From a virus: a stretch of DNA of 61,038 nucleotides. The stretch covers positions 1-61,038 of IMG/VR virus record IMGVR_UViG_3300046514_000354; one strand, written 5' to 3'. How positions within the stretch are numbered: the stretch's first letter is position 1; every line of letters starts with the position of its first letter. The notes under the pieces were generated by a model that saw only the letters and a program-made list of their open reading frames with translations, was not told the origin of the DNA and made no database searches. The translations under genes and the position numbers were made by a program. Shown piece by piece: positions 12,017 through 61,038 of the stretch.

Positions 12017-14860
12017 GTGGCTCTCACGCGTCGTCAATTCGATCTCCTTGCGCCCTATCTCGAGGGCGACCACCCCACACACCAGAATGTGGATCGTGAT
12101 ACAGGCGAGGTAACTCGTGAGTGGAATCTGGTTTGTCCTCTACATCAAGACAACAAGAGGTCGGCCAGCATCAATATCGACAAGGGCGTGTTCTTCTGCA
12201 ATGTATGCGGAGGCATGCCTATCGTCAGGCTCATGGGCAAGAAGGCAGAGTGGCAGCCAGCGCCAACGCTCAATGGTAACCACCACCGCCCTGACCCAGA
12301 TGCACCCGCGCCAACCTCCAAACAGCGTACTCTCACCGAGGGGCACATCAAGGGATGGCACAGCGCACTGCTGAGTAACGCAGGAGCTATGCGTTGGCTT
12401 GATGAAGTGAGAGGTTTGAGTCAGCAGACCATTGAGAAGTATGAGATCGGCTACGACTCAGGACGCATCTACACCATTCCCGTGCGCGGACCAGAGAACG
12501 AGATCTGGAACGTCAGGTTCTATGATCCCAGCCCTGGCGCTGTGCGCCGCAAGATCTGGTCTGAGTCAGGCTACGGATCTCCCAATCGTCTGTACCCTAT
12601 CTCCGTGTTTGACCTAGACCCGTCTGAGATCGTCATCGGAGAAGGTGAGTGGGACATTCTGCTGCTGCTACAGAACGGCATTCCTGCCGTAACACGCACC
12701 GGCGCTGCAGATGTCTGGCTCGCCGAGTGGGGCAGCTTCTTCAAGGACCGCACCGTGTACCTCTGCAACGACCGCGACGACAAGGGCTCAAAGGCTGACC
12801 GCGTGATCGCTAGATCACTGCGCCACGTAGCAGATGTGCGCGTGATTGAGCTGCCCTATCCGCGCGAGAAGAAACACGGCAAGGATGTGACTGACTTTCT
12901 CCTGGAACACTACCCATCTGACTTCCGCGAACTGATGAGCAAGGCTCGTCCGGCTAACAAACGGCGCGGAGCAGGCTCGGGCACTAAGTCAAAGCAGGAA
13001 CTCGCGACAGTGCTAGATACGTTTGACGCTCACAACGTCGGCACGCCGCTGACTACGATCGTCACGATCAAGGGTCGTAAGGAACCGGGTTACACAATCC
13101 CCAAGGTCGTACAGATGGCCTGCACGCAGGACGCCGGGAACAAGTGTGCGATCTGCCCGATGCGCGCAGCTAACGGCGAGGCAACGCTTGAGATCAATGC
13201 GGACGACCCGCTGGTTCTCAGCATGATTGACTACACCACGCCGCAGATGAAGGCAACGCTGGCCGGAGCCTATGGTGTCCCAGGCGGTAAGTGCCCAAAG
13301 CTGATGCAGGACATCACGGAGTACCAGTCAGTTGAGATCCTGTTCGGGCGTCCGGCGTTGGACTACTCAGACGGTAGCATCGTCGACCCCAAGAAAGCCG
13401 CCACGTACAAGAACATCAAGATCACATCGGTAGGGAGGCACGACACGGCGAGCAACAACACGGTACAGATCACCGGAGCGTTGCAGCCAAACCCAAGGAC
13501 TCAGGGAAACGAGTTCTTGGTGAGTGAGTTGGAAGGGATGGAGACTTCGGTTGATCGCTTCGAACTCACGGATCAGTCCATCGCTCTCATGAAGCGGTTC
13601 CAGGGCAATGGTAGACCTCTGCACAAGGTAGCAGAGATCAACCGTGCGCTCTCGGAGCACATCACTAGGGTGCACGGACGCCCTGAGATGCACGCTGTGA
13701 TGGACTTGACTTACCACTCCGTGATCAGTTTCAACTTTGCCGGGGAGTACATCCACCGTGGATGGCTGGAGAGCCTCATATTGGGAGACACACGAACCGG
13801 CAAATCTCAAGCAGCACAACGCATGATGTCTCACTACGGTGCGGGCGAGATGATCTCCTGTGAGGCAGCCTCCTTCGCGGGTGTAGTGGGAGGTCTGCAG
13901 ACGATCGGGCAGAAGGACTGGGTTGTTACCTGGGGAGTCATCCCTCTCAATGACCGTCGTCTGGTAGTCCTGGACGAGATCAGCGGTCTGACCCCAGAAG
14001 AGATTGCACAGATGAGCGACATCCGTTCATCAGGGCAAGCCAAGCTGGTCAAGATCCAGCAGGAGACAACCTGGGCTCGTACGCGTCTGCTGTGGCTGGC
14101 TAACCCCCGCAACGCTACCATGGCCAACTACACCTACGGGGTGGATGCCATCAAGCCTCTCATCGGCAACGCTGAGGACATCGCCAGGTTCGACCTGGCT
14201 ATGGTAGTCACGCTGTTCGACGTAGCCAGTGAGACAATCAATCAGCCAGCCGTAGGAGGAGAGCTACTGTACACCGCCGAGGCCTGCCACACGCTGCTCA
14301 TGTGGGTCTGGACGCGCGGAGCCAACAACATCATCTGGGCTACTGGCGCAGAGGACCGCGTGTTCTACCAGGCCAACGAGATGGGTAAGCTGTATGTGGA
14401 GGATCCTCCGCTGATTCAGGCAGCCAACGTCCGCATCAAGCTGTGTCGTTTGGCCATCGCGATAGCTGCCCGCACGTTCAGCACGGACGACAGCTACGAG
14501 AATATCGTGGTGCACCCCTACCATGTAGATGCTGCCGTACAGATGATCAATCTCCTGTACGGTATGCCGTCCTTCGGGTACCGCGAGCGCAGCCGCGAGA
14601 GGCTTGCTGATCGCTATGCTGCCGAGGACGCACGTGATGAGATGAGCCAGTACCTGAAGGGTCGTCCCATCTTGGCGAAGTACCTACGCAGCGCCGGTAA
14701 GTTCCGCCGCCAGGATCTGGACGAGATCATGAACATCTCAAGAGAGGAGAGCAACGCAATCATCTCCACCCTGTATGAACACAGGATGGTGCGCAAGGTA
14801 CTAGGCGACATTGTCGTCGAGCCAACGCTGCACTCACTACTGAGGGAGCTCAAATGGTAA
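12017..14860 (+). CDS. Primase fused to MCM-like AAA+ helicase
   Basis: GTG 12017 gives 947 aa. N-terminus: CHC2-type zinc site (C40, H43, C61, C64), then a TOPRIM domain with GEGEWD and NDRDDKG. Middle: a second Cys cluster (MACTQ..CAICP..GGKCP) and beta-rich linker. C-terminal half: AAA+ with GDTRTGKS, VVLDEIS, WLANPRN and ARFDLA, then a sensor-2-like VRIKLCRLAIAIAARTF, the signature order of MCM helicases. It probably unwinds DNA and synthesises primers at the phage fork. Confidence 0.88.
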   Translation: MALTRRQFDLLAPYLEGDHPTHQNVDRDTGEVTREWNLVCPLHQDNKRSASINIDKGVFFCNVCGGMPIVRLMGKKAEWQPAPTLNGNHHRPDPDAPAPTSKQRTLTEGHIKGWHSALLSNAGAMRWLDEVRGLSQQTIEKYEIGYDSGRIYTIPVRGPENEIWNVRFYDPSPGAVRRKIWSESGYGSPNRLYPISVFDLDPSEIVIGEGEWDILLLLQNGIPAVTRTGAADVWLAEWGSFFKDRTVYLCNDRDDKGSKADRVIARSLRHVADVRVIELPYPREKKHGKDVTDFLLEHYPSDFRELMSKARPANKRRGAGSGTKSKQELATVLDTFDAHNVGTPLTTIVTIKGRKEPGYTIPKVVQMACTQDAGNKCAICPMRAANGEATLEINADDPLVLSMIDYTTPQMKATLAGAYGVPGGKCPKLMQDITEYQSVEILFGRPALDYSDGSIVDPKKAATYKNIKITSVGRHDTASNNTVQITGALQPNPRTQGNEFLVSELEGMETSVDRFELTDQSIALMKRFQGNGRPLHKVAEINRALSEHITRVHGRPEMHAVMDLTYHSVISFNFAGEYIHRGWLESLILGDTRTGKSQAAQRMMSHYGAGEMISCEAASFAGVVGGLQTIGQKDWVVTWGVIPLNDRRLVVLDEISGLTPEEIAQMSDIRSSGQAKLVKIQQETTWARTRLLWLANPRNATMANYTYGVDAIKPLIGNAEDIARFDLAMVVTLFDVASETINQPAVGGELLYTAEACHTLLMWVWTRGANNIIWATGAEDRVFYQANEMGKLYVEDPPLIQAANVRIKLCRLAIAIAARTFSTDDSYENIVVHPYHVDAAVQMINLLYGMPSFGYRERSRERLADRYAAEDARDEMSQYLKGRPILAKYLRSAGKFRRQDLDEIMNISREESNAIISTLYEHRMVRKVLGDIVVEPTLHSLLRELKW

Positions 14861-15627
14861 AGGACATCATGATCCTGGGGTGCGGGCCGTCAGGACTACT
14901 GTGTGCGTGGGCTATGGAGAGCCAGGGTCACAGCGTCTCCATTCTCTCGCGCAAGGAGAAGTCCGTGATTCCGGGCAGCCAGCACTTGCACGGGCCGGTG
15001 CCCGGTCTGACCTCGCCCTACCCGGAGGGCACCATTCAGTTCGTCCGCATGGGCAATGCCCAGGACTACGCGGAGAAGGTGTACGGAGATCGCCGTCGTC
15101 TGACGGGCTGGGAGAACTACTTCCAGGTGTATCCGTCCTGGAATGTGCTCAGAGCATACGACCTACTCTGGGACCGCTACGAGAGCAGGATCATCGAGGG
15201 TGAGATCAACCACGACGTTGTGATGTCCTGCAAGTTCCACAGCGACTTGGTCATCAGCACCGTCCCGGCGCAGGTACTGTGCTACAACAACTGCGCATTC
15301 AACTCTGTGCCGTACTACATGAAGCAGCTGCCCACTCCGCCAGCAGACCAGAACAACGAGGTCGTGGTGTACAACGGCTTGCCGGAAGACCACTGGTACC
15401 GTTGGAGCATCCTGGGAGGGTTGTGCAGCATTGAGACAACTGCTCCCAGTTGGTCAGAGAACGTAGACGACGGCTGGGTGCAGGGCTGGAAGGCAGTCAG
15501 TAACCGCTGCACGTGTCACCCGGATGTAGTACGCTGTGGACGCTGGGCGGAGTGGACGCATGGGGTCACCATGTATAACGCATACCAAAAGGCATACTCA
15601 CTAGCAAGGGAGCTAGCAAATGAGTGA
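14854..15627 (+). CDS. FAD/NAD(P)-binding Rossmann oxidoreductase-like protein
   Basis: 257 aa; ATG 14854 overlaps the primase-helicase end. The N-terminus MVKDIMILGCGPSG carries GxGxxG (residues 9-14) followed by a helix and SVSILSRKEKS, the dinucleotide-binding fold of FAD-dependent oxidoreductases. A middle strand LVISTVPAQVL matches the second flavin-contact strand of that superfamily. Shorter than typical two-domain flavoenzymes. Substrate unknown; placement among replication genes suggests nucleotide or base chemistry, which is inference. Confidence 0.75.
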   Translation: MVKDIMILGCGPSGLLCAWAMESQGHSVSILSRKEKSVIPGSQHLHGPVPGLTSPYPEGTIQFVRMGNAQDYAEKVYGDRRRLTGWENYFQVYPSWNVLRAYDLLWDRYESRIIEGEINHDVVMSCKFHSDLVISTVPAQVLCYNNCAFNSVPYYMKQLPTPPADQNNEVVVYNGLPEDHWYRWSILGGLCSIETTAPSWSENVDDGWVQGWKAVSNRCTCHPDVVRCGRWAEWTHGVTMYNAYQKAYSLARELANE

Positions 15628-55463: not shown

Positions 55464-55781
55464 CTAGTGGTTCAGGACGAACGGGATGACCAGGTCGGCG
55501 ATCGCTGCCATACTCCGGGCAGCTAGCACTTCTGGTGTGACGCCGTTCTTCATGCCATACCACCGCAGGCCCATCTCTCGTCGGGCAGCCTTGACCTGCT
55601 CTTCGAACTCCTCGTGCTGTGACTGCCCCATCAAGATGCCGTGGCACATGACCTCGGCACAGTAGATAGAGCGGTGCGCGTAGGACTCTTCCGACATCGG
55701 CTTCTTGTACGGGGCAGGCTGCTCAAACCCCTGATGCCGCAACCAATACCCCGGTGTGTGCAGTTCGGATTCTTCGGACAT
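55464..55781 (-). CDS. Hypothetical protein (105 aa)
   Basis: ATG 55781 with CAGGAGGG upstream. MSEESELHTPGYW and an internal MSEESYAHRSIY repeat the same start, and helical C-terminus (SMAAIADLVIPFVL). It is the first leftward gene; nothing codes further right for 1.9 kb. No family. Confidence 0.75.
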   Translation of the reverse strand: MSEESELHTPGYWLRHQGFEQPAPYKKPMSEESYAHRSIYCAEVMCHGILMGQSQHEEFEEQVKAARREMGLRWYGMKNGVTPEVLAARSMAAIADLVIPFVLNH

Positions 55782-55863
55782 GGTATTGCGCTCCCTCCTG
55801 TGCTGTGTATGCGGGTGGTAGGTAAAGGATACCTGCTCTAGTGTGTAATTTCTGGGTGGCAGC
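55782..55863 (-). promoter_or_regulatory. Leader of the leftward operon, possible promoter
   Basis: On the - strand it reads 'gcatacacagcacAGGAGGG' before ATG 55781, matching the RBS context of the + cassettes. A TATCCT box lies about 50 nt upstream of the ATG without a clear -35. Confidence 0.4.
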
Positions 55864-55903
55864 GGAGCTCTACGGAGCCCTACGGAGCCCTACGGAGCCC
55901 TAC
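55864..55903. repeat. Four 10-bp direct repeats
   Basis: GGAGCTCTAC then GGAGCCCTAC three times in exact 10-bp register (55864-55903), followed by GGTAC. One helical turn per unit puts every copy on the same DNA face, like protein-binding iterons or an operator array. Confidence 0.75.
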
Positions 55904-55963
55904 GGTACAGTCTGAAATTGCGTGGTGGCGGATTTTCAATGCGGCGGCTGCATGGGCGGGGGT

Positions 55964-56192
55964 TTGCTCGCTCTCGCGCACGCACGCGCGAGGCATCCTG
56001 AAGTGGTGGAGTGAATCCCTCCCGACGGGCGCACGCATGCGCGCGCACGCATACGAGAGATCGAGATCTCGCGCGTAACGCGCCTACGCTCGCGGGTTCT
56101 ACGAAGTAGAACCTCGTACGCGTGCGTGCGCCTAGGAGAGGAAAAATCCCGGAGTGTGGAGGGTGGCTCGCGAGCGCGAGGGCGCGGGCGCG
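55964..56192 (-). promoter_or_regulatory. GC-alternating control element, copy 3
   Basis: Contains CGCACGCACGCGCGAG, GCGCACGCATGCGC (56027-56040), GAGATCGAGATCTC, and GTTCTACGAAGTAGAAC. The 19-mer at 56124-56142 is the inverse of 7505-7523 and TGAATCCCTCCC at 56010-56021 is the inverse of 7534-7545, in the same order on the - strand. It faces the leftward operon. Confidence 0.6.
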
Positions 56193-57687
56193 GCACGTTT
56201 TCGAGTGAGATTTATGTGAGAGAGCGGGATAGCGTGTCGCAGTTGAGAGAGAAAACTTGATGAAAAGATTGCGCTAAAGTGGCTATAAGAGCTCGAAATT
56301 TGAGGAAGTTAGTGTTTATCGGATTGTGCGGAAAGTCTGGAAAGTTGTGCTATATTTCACGGATAGGTGTGAAATTTTTGAATGGGGACCGTTTATGGTG
56401 ATTGTGCTTGTATTTTATGGGTAATTGACCAGTTCGCGGTACCCGCACCGCCCACGGGTCCCCTATTTGGCGTAATTTTCAAAGTAATTCAATTCGTTTA
56501 TCAATTATTGATAGTAATTGAACTAGTAATTCAAACTTTCGTAAATAATCGCGAGAAATTGGGCGACCCCTTTAGCCCTTCACGCTAGGTACCAAATACC
56601 AAATCCCAAGAAAAGTGCCATATTAGCAGGGCTTTTCCTCATCACCCCCTATTTGTACCTTTTGCCGGTATTTACAACCCCTACCCCTACCCTACCCGAT
56701 AGTTAACTAGGTTAATAGTTCGTAGGTAGTACCGGGTACCGTTCGGTTTATCGGTTATTACGTTTTTGAAATATGCCAATTACCAGGGCTTTTGTCCCCT
56801 AACTGGCGCAAATAGGGTAGCCCAACTTACCTACCACGCCCCGTTTACCCCCGCTTAGGGACCAAATAGGGGCCAATTACGGCCAATTTTACGAAATTCC
56901 CGCAAATAGCGGGTTTTTCGTAATAGCCAATCGTATATTTGGCCCTTAGTTGGCACTTTTAGCGGTACGCTACGGGCGCGTCGCGCGCTACGCGCGGTCG
57001 CCGGGGCGCTTATAGCCCGCCCCGCCCGCCCCGGCCCTTAGCGGCTACGGCGCGGGGGTTACGGGGGTAGCGCCCCGTACACCTAGCGCCCCGCCGGGGC
57101 GCGCGGTACAGGGTACCTGGTACCCCCGTTTTGTAGGCTACGCGGGGGTAGGGCGGTACTTCCCGGGCCGCGCGCGTACGGGGTACTAGGGCTTACTTAC
57201 CTAAATGGCTCGCGCTTAGTTAGGGGGTAGGCAATTAGGGCGAAATTACCGGGGCGCGTTTATACCCCGGTAATTGACGGCGCTTACCCCTTTGGCGGTA
57301 GCGCGTACCCCGTACCTAATCGGCGCTCCGCTACCTACGGCGGGGCCAAATTAGGTTAGCCCAATTACCCCGCTAGTTAGAAACCGCGCCCGTAAGGGTT
57401 GCCTTAAACCTAGCCCGGTAATTGGCCTTATTTACGGTACGCGTTACGACTAGCCCTACGGTAAGGCAGTTAGCTAATTGGTACGGCTCGGGCTTAGGTA
57501 ACTAGGTGGTATTCCGGGTGCGCCGGTAGTCGGCGCGTTTTGCGTAACTAAATTGGCGTTAATAGCGTAGTCGTTAGCCCTAAAAATCCTCCCTCCCTGA
57601 CGCGTACGGGCCGGTAATTGGCGCCTAGCTAATTGCCGGTCCCTACGTTATTCTCGGTAGCTAATACCTACCAAAAGGCGGTTGAAA
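56193..57687. other. 1.5-kb non-coding island of unusual composition
   Basis: No convincing gene or long ORF. From about 56.38 kb to the first gene TpA and CpG steps are very frequent and CpA/TpG steps rare, the reverse of most DNA; GTAC, AATT, CTAG, CCGG, GGCC and GCGC words recur. The left part (56200-56600) is A/T-rich. RBS AAGGCGG precedes ATG 57688. A replication origin, packaging or regulatory region, or recently acquired DNA, is possible. Confidence 0.65.
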
Positions 57688-57978
57688 ATGAACTACCTAG
57701 TAAGCGGTAATTCCGTGACGTTTGAAAACGCTGATGAAACCGTAAGCGTTTGGTTTTCTGAAGGTGATGACGTCGCTGAAAGCGGTACGGTAATTCCGGC
57801 CGGTGAATTGGCCGTGGCTTTCTCTGACTCTATGGGTACGGTAATCGTCCCGTTTAGTGAAGTGCTTTCTGCCGTAACCCTTACGGTTCCGGCTACGTTT
57901 GACGTTGAAATTCGCGCCCTGGTTAATCTGGTCGGCGCGGTCGCGCTACTTCTTGACTTGGCGGCTAATAACGCCTAG
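57688..57978 (+). CDS. Hypothetical beta protein (96 aa), atypical codons
   Basis: ATG 57688 with AAGGCGG 6 nt upstream; a TTG at 57682 is an alternative. Sequence is Val/Ala/Thr-rich and beta-like (VTFENADETVSVWF), with a C-terminal hydrophobic helix (LVNLVGAVALLLDLAA). Codons such as GTA, CGT, TTG, AAT are commoner than elsewhere, as in the island upstream. Confidence 0.7.
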   Translation: MNYLVSGNSVTFENADETVSVWFSEGDDVAESGTVIPAGELAVAFSDSMGTVIVPFSEVLSAVTLTVPATFDVEIRALVNLVGAVALLLDLAANNA

Positions 57979-58054
57979 CTAAACCGCTACCGGGAATAAC
58001 GTAGGGAATTCCCCCTACAAACCGGGCTTAAAGCCCAAAACAGGGAGGTAAGAA
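57979..58054 (+). promoter_or_regulatory. Hairpin-RBS cassette, divergent member
   Basis: GTAGGG/CCCTAC and GGGC/GCCC stems, then 'cccaaaacAGGGAGG'. The usual CGGG base is replaced, but the order hairpin, acAGGGAGG, ATG (58055) is kept. Confidence 0.55.
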
Positions 58055-58372
58055 ATGACCACCAACGCTACCACCGATACGGTAAGCGTTACCACCAACT
58101 CAGGCGAAACCCTCACGGTTAAGCTCGAGGATACCACCGACGTCATTCGGGCGCTACTTTTGGCCCGGAAAGAAGGGTACGAAGCCCGCCGGACCGCGAA
58201 AGCGGCAGCGAACGCCGAGGCGAAAGCGGCCAAGGCGAAAGCGGCCACCGAGCGCGAAGCGGCGCGGAATCTGAAGCGGAACGCGCGGCTTGAGAAGTTG
58301 CGCGCCCAGCTGAACGCGCTTGAGAATCCCCCGGCGAAAGCGGCCGGTAAGAAGTCGAAGAAAGCTGCCTAG
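58055..58372 (+). CDS. Ala/Lys-rich coiled protein (105 aa)
   Basis: First 30 residues are Thr-rich beta, then an Ala/Lys/Glu helix (AANAEAKAAKAKAATEREAARNLKRNARLEKL) and a AAGKKSKKAA tail. This resembles basic helical nucleoid-like tails, so DNA binding is possible. No known family. Confidence 0.72.
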   Translation: MTTNATTDTVSVTTNSGETLTVKLEDTTDVIRALLLARKEGYEARRTAKAAANAEAKAAKAKAATEREAARNLKRNARLEKLRAQLNALENPPAKAAGKKSKKAA

Positions 58373-58445
58373 TAAGTAGCGGCGGGGATTACTTCGGTAA
58401 TCCCGCGCCGGTGCCAATTAGGTACCAATAACAGGGAGGAATTAA
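58373..58445 (+). promoter_or_regulatory. Hairpin-RBS cassette
   Basis: CGGCG-GGGATTAC, UUCG loop, GTAATCCC-GCGCCG (58380-58410) with one bulge, then 'taccaataacAGGGAGGA' and GTG 58446. Confidence 0.7.
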
Positions 58446-58715
58446 GTGACGGATATTTGGTATTCCGTTACGGGCACGGTCATCGGATTCTTGAACTACG
58501 AATTCGGCGGCCACCCGGAGTATGACATGCTGGTAATCCGTACCGAAACCGGCCTGGCGCTAAGATGGACCGGGCACGACTTCGGAATCGTAAAACGGGC
58601 TGCTAGTTTGGTCGCGGATGATGACGACGTCATCCCCGGTGATGAAGTTGAATTCTCAACGTGTAAGCGTGAGCAGGATTCCTATACGGAATCCGTAAGC
58701 GGCGCGGATCGTTAG
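58446..58715 (+). CDS. Hypothetical acidic protein (89 aa)
   Basis: GTG 58446 after AGGGAGGAATTAA. Beta-rich (WYSVTGTVIGFLNYEFGG..YDMLVIRTETGLALRW), a small SH3- or OB-like barrel is possible. Codon use still differs from the main genome. Unknown function. Confidence 0.7.
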   Translation: MTDIWYSVTGTVIGFLNYEFGGHPEYDMLVIRTETGLALRWTGHDFGIVKRAASLVADDDDVIPGDEVEFSTCKREQDSYTESVSGADR

Positions 58716-58781: not shown

Positions 58782-59126
58782 ATGGATCGCATTATCACGA
58801 TCGGTCACGACTACGGTCGGATCATCCTTGAGATGCCAGAGCGGAAAGACAAGCCGCTCAGCCCTCAGAACTGGAAAGCTCTCGAGGAAGCCGATAACCG
58901 CTTCTATCGCGGAAACCCCGGGATGAACGGTTACACGCACGTGATGAGCAACGACGGATCTGCCGCTCTGAACGAACTGTGGGACACCGCCTGGATGGCA
59001 GTTGAAGCCGAGATTGACGGCTTTGAGCATAAGGGTAGCGAAACCCTCATCCGGGCACGGACTGCGAAGCGTGTCTGCCAGGCCTACGCGCTGATCAACT
59101 TCGGCGCTGAGATCCTTCTGGCGTAG
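58782..59126 (+). CDS. Hypothetical protein (114 aa)
   Basis: ATG 58782. N-terminal RIITIGHDYGRIILEMPER (beta), then helical with WDTAWMAVEAEIDGF and CQAYALINFGAEIL. From here codon use returns to the genome norm. No known family. Confidence 0.75.
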   Translation: MDRIITIGHDYGRIILEMPERKDKPLSPQNWKALEEADNRFYRGNPGMNGYTHVMSNDGSAALNELWDTAWMAVEAEIDGFEHKGSETLIRARTAKRVCQAYALINFGAEILLA

Positions 59127-60743: not shown

Positions 60744-61038
60744 ATGGACAAAGCTCCGACACCGGCGAAGCTCACGCTTCTCGAAGAGGGCGACTTGATC
60801 CGCAATGCTTACAAGAACGGTAAGCGGAACAAGGACGGCCACAAGACGGTCATGCTGCCTCATCAGCAGTTGACGGTTCAGCGGTTCATCATCACGCCGT
60901 TGGACAAGACTCGGAAGGTCACGCTCGGTCCGCCGCTGAAGCGGGACGAGCAGACCACCACCACGGTAAGCGATCGTTGGCTGGTGGCACGTCCGGCAGA
61001 CGGCTCAGCACTGCCCACGTACTGCGTGGCGCGGGACT
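60744..61038 (+). CDS. Hypothetical protein, 5' part of the gene crossing the contig ends
   Basis: ATG at 60744 follows a strong AGGGAGG site by 4 nt. The frame is open to the contig end and continues through 128..162 after removing the 127-bp overlap, giving a 109-residue protein. It is Lys/Thr-rich, begins MDKAPTPAKLTLLEEGD and ends in GKKK. I recognise no family. It lies in the early + strand cluster and its stop is followed directly by the ATG of the next gene at 163. Confidence 0.85.
   Translation, partial: MDKAPTPAKLTLLEEGDLIRNAYKNGKRNKDGHKTVMLPHQQLTVQRFIITPLDKTRKVTLGPPLKRDEQTTTTVSDRWLVARPADGSALPTYCVARD
60912..61038. repeat. Right copy of the 127-bp terminal overlap
   Basis: Same bases as 1-127. 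One copy should be removed before counting genes or genome length; the unique circle is 60,911 bp. Confidence 0.93.

Follow-up and report, generated by a model that had tools for sequence, protein, structure and literature searches.

We asked why the DNA that separates the late from the early genes of an uncultivated soil phage should be almost free of the dinucleotides CA and TG. The phage is represented by the window, the whole stretch of 61,038 nucleotides that was analysed (IMG/VR record IMGVR_UViG_3300046514_000354). Bases 1-127 of the window are identical to bases 60912-61038 and a second contig spans the join, indicating that the genome of ~60.9 kb (60,911 bases) is circular in the assembly. 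The terminase, portal, protease, capsid and tail sheath genes lie on the left strand and the helicase, exonuclease, primase, DnaE-type polymerase and ThyX genes on the right strand; this gene content, the tail sheath included, indicates a contractile-tailed phage (myophage). Among the cultured phages closest in terminase, protease or polymerase, many are phages of actinobacteria. We found no close cultured relative of the window phage and no prophage relative in 84,980 bacterial genomes. The leftward late genes end at 55781 and the rightward early genes start at 57688, with the island between both (Table 1) and a likely small terminase gene 4 kb from it.

Sliding-window odds ratios departed clearly from the genome average, confirming that the bias is real. 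At 57001-57500 the odds ratio was 3.23 for TpA (0.57 in the genome), 0.24 for CpA/TpG (1.16 in the genome) and 0.15 for GpA/TpC (1.24 in the genome). An earlier note, made from the letters alone, had reported that TA and CG exceed CA and TG at 57301-57360, and we counted 7 TA, 8 CG, 1 CA and 0 TG there; the note had overlooked that GA/TC are shunned in the island even more strongly than CA/TG, and the bias proved stronger than it had described. In the core of the island (56901-57687), C or G rarely stands before A and C or G rarely follows T, with 6.6 SA+TS steps per 100 bp (where S is C or G) compared to 29.9 in the genome. AT-runs of the form T...A account for 55% of the runs in the core versus 5.5% elsewhere. 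Mutual information in the island is concentrated at lag 1, i.e. the dependence is essentially between neighbouring bases. The CA/TG-poor segment scored 73.6 and the GA/TC-poor segment 81.2, while the top scores of 100 whole-genome first-order simulations were 10.4 and 13.9, respectively. According to the best-scoring joint segment, the biased zone extends from 56435 to 58475 and fades across the first three early genes, which bears out the earlier description of a non-coding island of odd composition that spills into the adjacent genes. The proposed extent (56193-57687) held for the island itself and failed for 56193-56419, where SA+TS is 27.0 (29.9 in the genome). The other intergenic DNA of the window phage is normal (SA+TS 28.6 and TA 2.7 per 100 bp), so the bias does not extend to its non-coding DNA at large; neutral non-coding DNA was rejected on the same comparison (6.6 in the core versus 28.6).

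Table 1. Features of the island and its surroundings (positions in the window)
Feature	Position	Strand	Description
CG-rich zone	55940..56192		GCGCAC/GCATGC/TACGCG words and inverted repeats; adjoins late genes
Flanking zone	56193..56419		C-poor on + strand, without the bias; sets island apart from late side
Island	56420..57687		Non-coding, CA/TG/GA/TC-poor, TA-rich; 56901-57687 strongest
Hairpin TACGAAATTCCCGC-AAATA-GCGGGTTTTTCGTA	56889..56924	+	Terminator-like to the right, T-run; fold z -6.3
CCTCCCTCCCT block	57588..57598	+	Complementary to early-gene Shine-Dalgarno box
First early gene	57688..57978	+	96 aa; CA/TG 24 vs 35.9 and GA/TC 31 vs 46.3 expected from own codons; CA/TG z -2.8
Second early gene	58055..58372	+	105 aa, Lys/Ala-rich; CA/TG 21 vs 35 expected, z -3.4
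Third early gene	58446..58715	+	89 aa; weakly affected, CA/TG z about -2.2 to -2.3
ACAGGGAGG copies	668, 3384, 3973, 58040, 58431, 58767, 59179, 59508, 60354, 60731	+	

Is the avoidance shared by related phages? As relatives we took contigs with a related capsid or terminase, the terminase being 54-77% identical to that of the window. In 12 of 14 contigs the CA/TG minimum of the whole stretch (400-base window) falls in an island beside the early genes. CA/TG numbered 4 versus 82 expected in the 737-bp island of G021, 8 versus 102 in 948 bp of G022, 37 versus 185 in 1373 bp of G016 and 169 versus 404 in 3123 bp of G013. All 12 tabulated island stretches (window and relatives) are poor in CA as well as TG on one and the same strand. 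The avoidance of GA/TC is lineage-specific: it is strong only in the window and moderate in some others, GA/TC are enriched in the islands of G021, G022 and G016, and the three most extreme islands show no depletion of GA/TC or TA words. G008 and G015, which are 92% identical to each other, have a weak island only. Sequence similarity between islands is absent in most pairs and present between the window and G006, the window and G007, G006 and G007, G012 and G027, and the two sister genomes within G016 (see below); the islands of the window and G005 share a 28-base match only. Thus, conservation of the rule reaches further than that of the sequence. The CA/TG-free stretches of G022 and G021 are sharp-edged, and in G022 there is a CA/TG every ~5 bp just outside. 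By eye, each of these two stretches takes in a gene with untranslated DNA on its flanks and reaches as far as a hairpin with T's behind it, and so resembles what would be expected for a transcription unit. Ahead of the CA/TG-free unit, L139 (5900-6655) and L125 (7000-7577) have T/G-rich zones in which repeated GGCTTA...TTGACTTG-like words, seen by eye, are possibly promoter arrays. The 3.1-kb island of G013 (L124, 13722-16844) consists largely of GGAATTCC-like words, 54 of which lie within one mismatch (simulated maximum, 26).

The bias enters genes, and we therefore compared each gene with versions in which synonymous codons were shuffled by the phage's own usage, giving z-scores. The three lowest CA/TG z-scores among the 72 window genes belong to the three genes beside the island, the second early gene having the lowest of all; homologues of this gene mark the island in the relatives. 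Gene 58782-59126 was not clearly affected, the effect having faded by 58782. An island gene was the most CA/TG-depleted gene in all eight genomes with genes inside the island (window, G012, G016, G019, G021, G022, G013 and G025), and in G013 the four lowest-scoring genes all lie within its island. The avoidance is independent of reading frame (CA/TG versus expected: G021, 1/42; G022, 4/45; G016, 3/33). Moreover, the amino acids that depend mostly on codons with CA or TG (His, Gln, Met, Cys and Trp) make up 0.5-1.1% in G021, G022 and G016 versus 10.6-11.2% of the proteome. The shifts in synonymous codons and in amino acids in the island genes indicate a nucleic-acid constraint that overrides protein composition.

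Next to strength and extent stands the question of whether mutation or selection keeps CA/TG low. The record of G016 (IMGVR_UViG_3300046533_000294, 129,757 bases) contains two phage genomes, ~80% identical, joined end to end and each with an island; the record is probably a chimeric assembly. The identity of this sister pair is 76.6% in the island core and 77.7% in nearby late genes, and the ratio of transitions to transversions is 94:124 in the island and 112:164 in the late genes. When the 218 substitutions of the pair were placed randomly, ~58 CA/TG were expected (at least 42 in 1000 trials), while 8 and 4 were observed. An ordinary substitution spectrum with so few CA/TG indicates continuous removal by selection and not an unusual mutation hot spot. 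The suggestion that the DNA comes from a different mutational background is thus disfavoured, as the avoidance is also found in the same place in diverged relatives. Hypermutation is disfavoured both by the G016 pair and by the conservation of the island region between G008 and G015 (96-99.5%). Within the window population the single difference seen was a 7-base tandem duplication; the AAATACC-unit duplication in the region of 56594 is present in the window and absent in contigs L004, L080 and L083. We consider it very probable that a dinucleotide-free start zone maintained by selection exists as a phenomenon.

The letters of the island had also suggested an abundance of self-complementary words. 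Four-base palindromes numbered 129 compared to 124.7 expected from first-order composition, indicating that the words, which are indeed there, are a mere by-product, and selection for palindromes was rejected. Relaxed restriction avoidance, another of the earlier suggestions, did not survive the same count, as there is no palindrome excess over first-order expectation and GATC, CATG, TCGA and TGCA are absent; nor are four-base palindromes rarer than expected from lower-order composition, the signature of restriction-site avoidance. The statement that no gene fits was correct: 56590-57680 has no frame of at least 40 aa and the island no tRNA. A hidden gene or an altered code was rejected, there being no frame and no three-base periodicity. 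An Rfam search of the island gave no RNA above threshold, and RNA folding in 200-nt windows over 56201-57800 gave z-scores of -2.1 to 0.5 against dinucleotide-matched controls, i.e. no excess; a structured RNA or known RNA family was rejected except for the single short hairpin listed in Table 1. In the window, 8- and 10-mers were within the simulated range (no iterons), matches in a sigma-70 promoter scan were no commoner than chance and no helical phasing of TA steps was seen. Purine-pyrimidine alternation in 55940..56192 was not significant, and an alternating zone as a conserved element was rejected because it is not significant in most genomes.

Several local elements accompany the island. 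The hairpin sits at the left edge of its strongest part, and related hairpins with a CCGC-(T/A)-rich loop were found by eye in G007, G025 and G001. Purine blocks like CCTCCCTCCCT, facing into the island, were likewise seen in G008, G001, G025, G007 and G016. A 22-base inverted repeat (57640-57661 and 57986-58007, 95% complementary) lies on either side of the first early gene, and a tandem 10-base repeat, CGGAGCCCTA, is located beside the late genes (55863-55902). The word ACAGGGAGG occurs ten times in the early region (0.8 expected), throughout on the + strand. When six of the gaps concerned were folded, each had a long hairpin (GUAGCGG...CCGGUGC type; z -2.9 to -4.4) upstream of the box, and the box with its hairpin looks like a repeated start cassette.

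What, then, could remove CA/TG from this zone? Since each of the 12 stretches is poor in both CA and its complement TG on one and the same strand, the simplest target would be a double-stranded DNA step; and since the early operon begins with this stretch, the simplest reason would be that early reading or entry is harmed by an agent acting on CA/TG. Such an agent is our inference. Our favoured explanation, which we put forward tentatively, is that some agent which acts on the phage DNA as a double strand recognises the CA/TG step, and that this step is kept out of the start zone. The island and the first early genes would form this zone, from which selection would continually remove CA/TG (in the window also GA/TC). 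The agent could modify a base, nick the DNA, attack it in the manner of a restriction enzyme or be a compound that binds to it. Elsewhere in the genome the phage would tolerate the agent, but not where the host polymerase or the entry machinery reads first; the first transcription unit would therefore carry no targets, and the island would be the part that must stay untouched. The broader proposal, that a soil actinophage-like family keeps, through selection on its DNA, a CA/TG-free first transcription unit because a dinucleotide-specific agent acts on the remaining phage DNA, is somewhat doubtful.

Several observations speak against the favoured explanation. The close relatives G008 and G015 are without a strong island, as are several cultured relatives with a similar replication module, and the avoidance of GA/TC is not common to the lineages. 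Searches with Pfam, PHROGs and PADLOC, which covered most early proteins and some of those of the relatives, recognised no DNA-modification, restriction or nicking genes. The gene at 14854-15627 has an FAD/NAD-binding fold (PHROG 8720) and is conserved near DnaE in all long records of relatives that span this part; in G016, HAD, methyltransferase and short-chain dehydrogenase genes lie beside its homologue, as in mycobacteriophage cluster D. The neighbourhood is possibly a nucleotide-modification module. As a modification gene that tracks island strength it was rejected, since it is also present in G015 with its weak island.

The main counter-evidence comes from Arthrobacter phage Wollypog (NC_070760), which, like the window phage, has non-coding DNA at the junction of the late end and the first early gene (22.3-23.55 kb), with zones of differing word usage. 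Its segment 23040-23550 strongly avoids CA (0.22) and GA (0.34). In contrast to the island, TG is not avoided on the same strand (0.96), so the double-stranded word fails there; the first gene is apparently unaffected by eye and the region has no known sequence similarity to the island. A constraint at the RNA level or on the template strand would produce this asymmetry. Ahead of its AT-rich and CA-poor zones, Wollypog also has a strongly alternating purine-pyrimidine, CG-rich zone (L163, 22380-22920; z 5.8). Odd non-coding DNA with other word habits occurs at the same junction in Nocardia phage P3.1, and at the right genome ends of Gordonia phages Pleakley (L166, 13184-14106) and RedRaider (L167, 15601-16425), where GGGGTAGGGG and TATATA-type words and low AG/CT differ from the habits of the island. 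The P3.1 and Gordonia regions may form a wider class or may be a separate matter. No comparable island was found in the scanned parts of Amigo, LazerLemon, Troll4, Gibson, Karate and Sparcetus. The CA-poor, low-complexity acidic genes of Gibson, Troll4 and Karate were rejected as islands, as they have TA of 0-0.5 and GA of 1.5-2.2, and their CA-poverty is explained by protein composition.

Three explanations are weaker rivals to a recognition step in double-stranded DNA: a constraint on RNA, the exclusion of primase sites and a mutational process. The first holds that an endoribonuclease or RNA-binding protein of host or phage acts on CA and UG (and GA and UC) in the early leader or first mRNA. 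The resemblance of the free stretch to a transcription unit and the strand-specific pattern of Wollypog fit this idea, as does the fact that sense TG is shunned more than sense CA in G016, G012, G007, G006 and G027. However, the idea requires two or four separate RNA words that happen, lineage after lineage, to be reverse complements (unless transcription covers both strands), and the island has no excess of RNA structure; we regard this explanation as unlikely.

The island, where the genes diverge and near which the cumulative GC skew has its minimum (54-55 kb), is a possible replication origin, although the switch in gene direction confounds the skew. CTG- or GTC-type triplets serve as primase sites, and an origin free of primase start sites (T then G/C) could restrict priming. 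The window spares CAA/TTG and shuns CAC, CAG and CAT, which is reminiscent of primase triplets. Nevertheless, TTG is also shunned in G021 and G022, the avoidance runs through whole genes and primases usually read three bases, making it improbable that primase sites account for the island. A local mutational process that turns CA/TG into TA and CG, mainly via transitions, would agree with the total YpR frequency, which is nearly unchanged in the core (~0.27 versus 0.25). It has just as little to recommend it, since the island of the G016 pair diverges like its late genes, the island edges are sharp and the region is highly conserved between the weak-island G008 and G015.

Chemical defence is a very unlikely explanation. 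Here, intercalators secreted by actinomycetes in soil would be the agent, and an early region without their preferred intercalation steps would stay transcribable. Intercalating antibiotics stop T5-like phages after first-step transfer and are thus a real antiphage pressure (PMC13250531), and some indolocarbazole derivatives favour TpG.CpA steps (PMC6009268). On the other hand, daunorubicin favours WCG (PMC2536678) whereas CG is enriched in the island, and no phage gene supports this idea. It is highly improbable that the leader avoids translation starts (NTG) and Shine-Dalgarno-like words: the loss of TG does remove ATG, GTG and TTG and that of GA removes GGAGG, but CA is shunned on the same strand, the avoidance persists at synonymous sites inside translated genes and Wollypog keeps TG. 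Equally remote is the idea that the island simply shows the relaxed composition usual in long non-coding stretches of phage DNA, for although non-coding islands of odd composition occur in other actinophages, either at this junction or at the end of the genome, the other intergenic DNA of the window phage is normal, coding genes are affected and the pattern is maintained under divergence.

Finally, we compared the island with known systems. Local avoidance of restriction sites occurs in phage DNA that enters first, e.g. the first-step-transfer region of T5. This is the nearest idea, as there too a defined early region is without words present elsewhere in the genome; unlike in T5-type avoidance, the word in the island is two bases long and is removed inside genes at amino-acid cost, and palindromes are not the target. 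In phages with 7-deazaguanine/DpdA systems or Mu Mom, the target words are so short that, in principle, they could set an unmodified gap apart from a modified genome, and very short modification targets do exist in phages, with dPreQ0 replacing ~30% of G in Rosebush and CAjan (PMC6884629). In contrast to these phages, no DpdA, Mom, QueC/D/E or hmU-type genes were recognised here. The CpG/UpA suppression of eukaryotic RNA viruses is likewise a dinucleotide avoidance under selection, but it is genome-wide and concerns CpG and UpA, while the island is local and enriched in CpG and TpA. We found no published description of such an island in open-access text, and precedent may exist elsewhere. A near-absolute ban on a dinucleotide over 0.4-3 kb, which overrides codon and amino-acid choice across deep divergence, points to a selective agent at work as infection begins. 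Its identification might bring to light a new DNA modification, a host or chemical defence, or a constraint on early transcription. Moreover, dinucleotide-free segments are easily searched for and might point to regions of entry or early control in phages that have not been cultivated.
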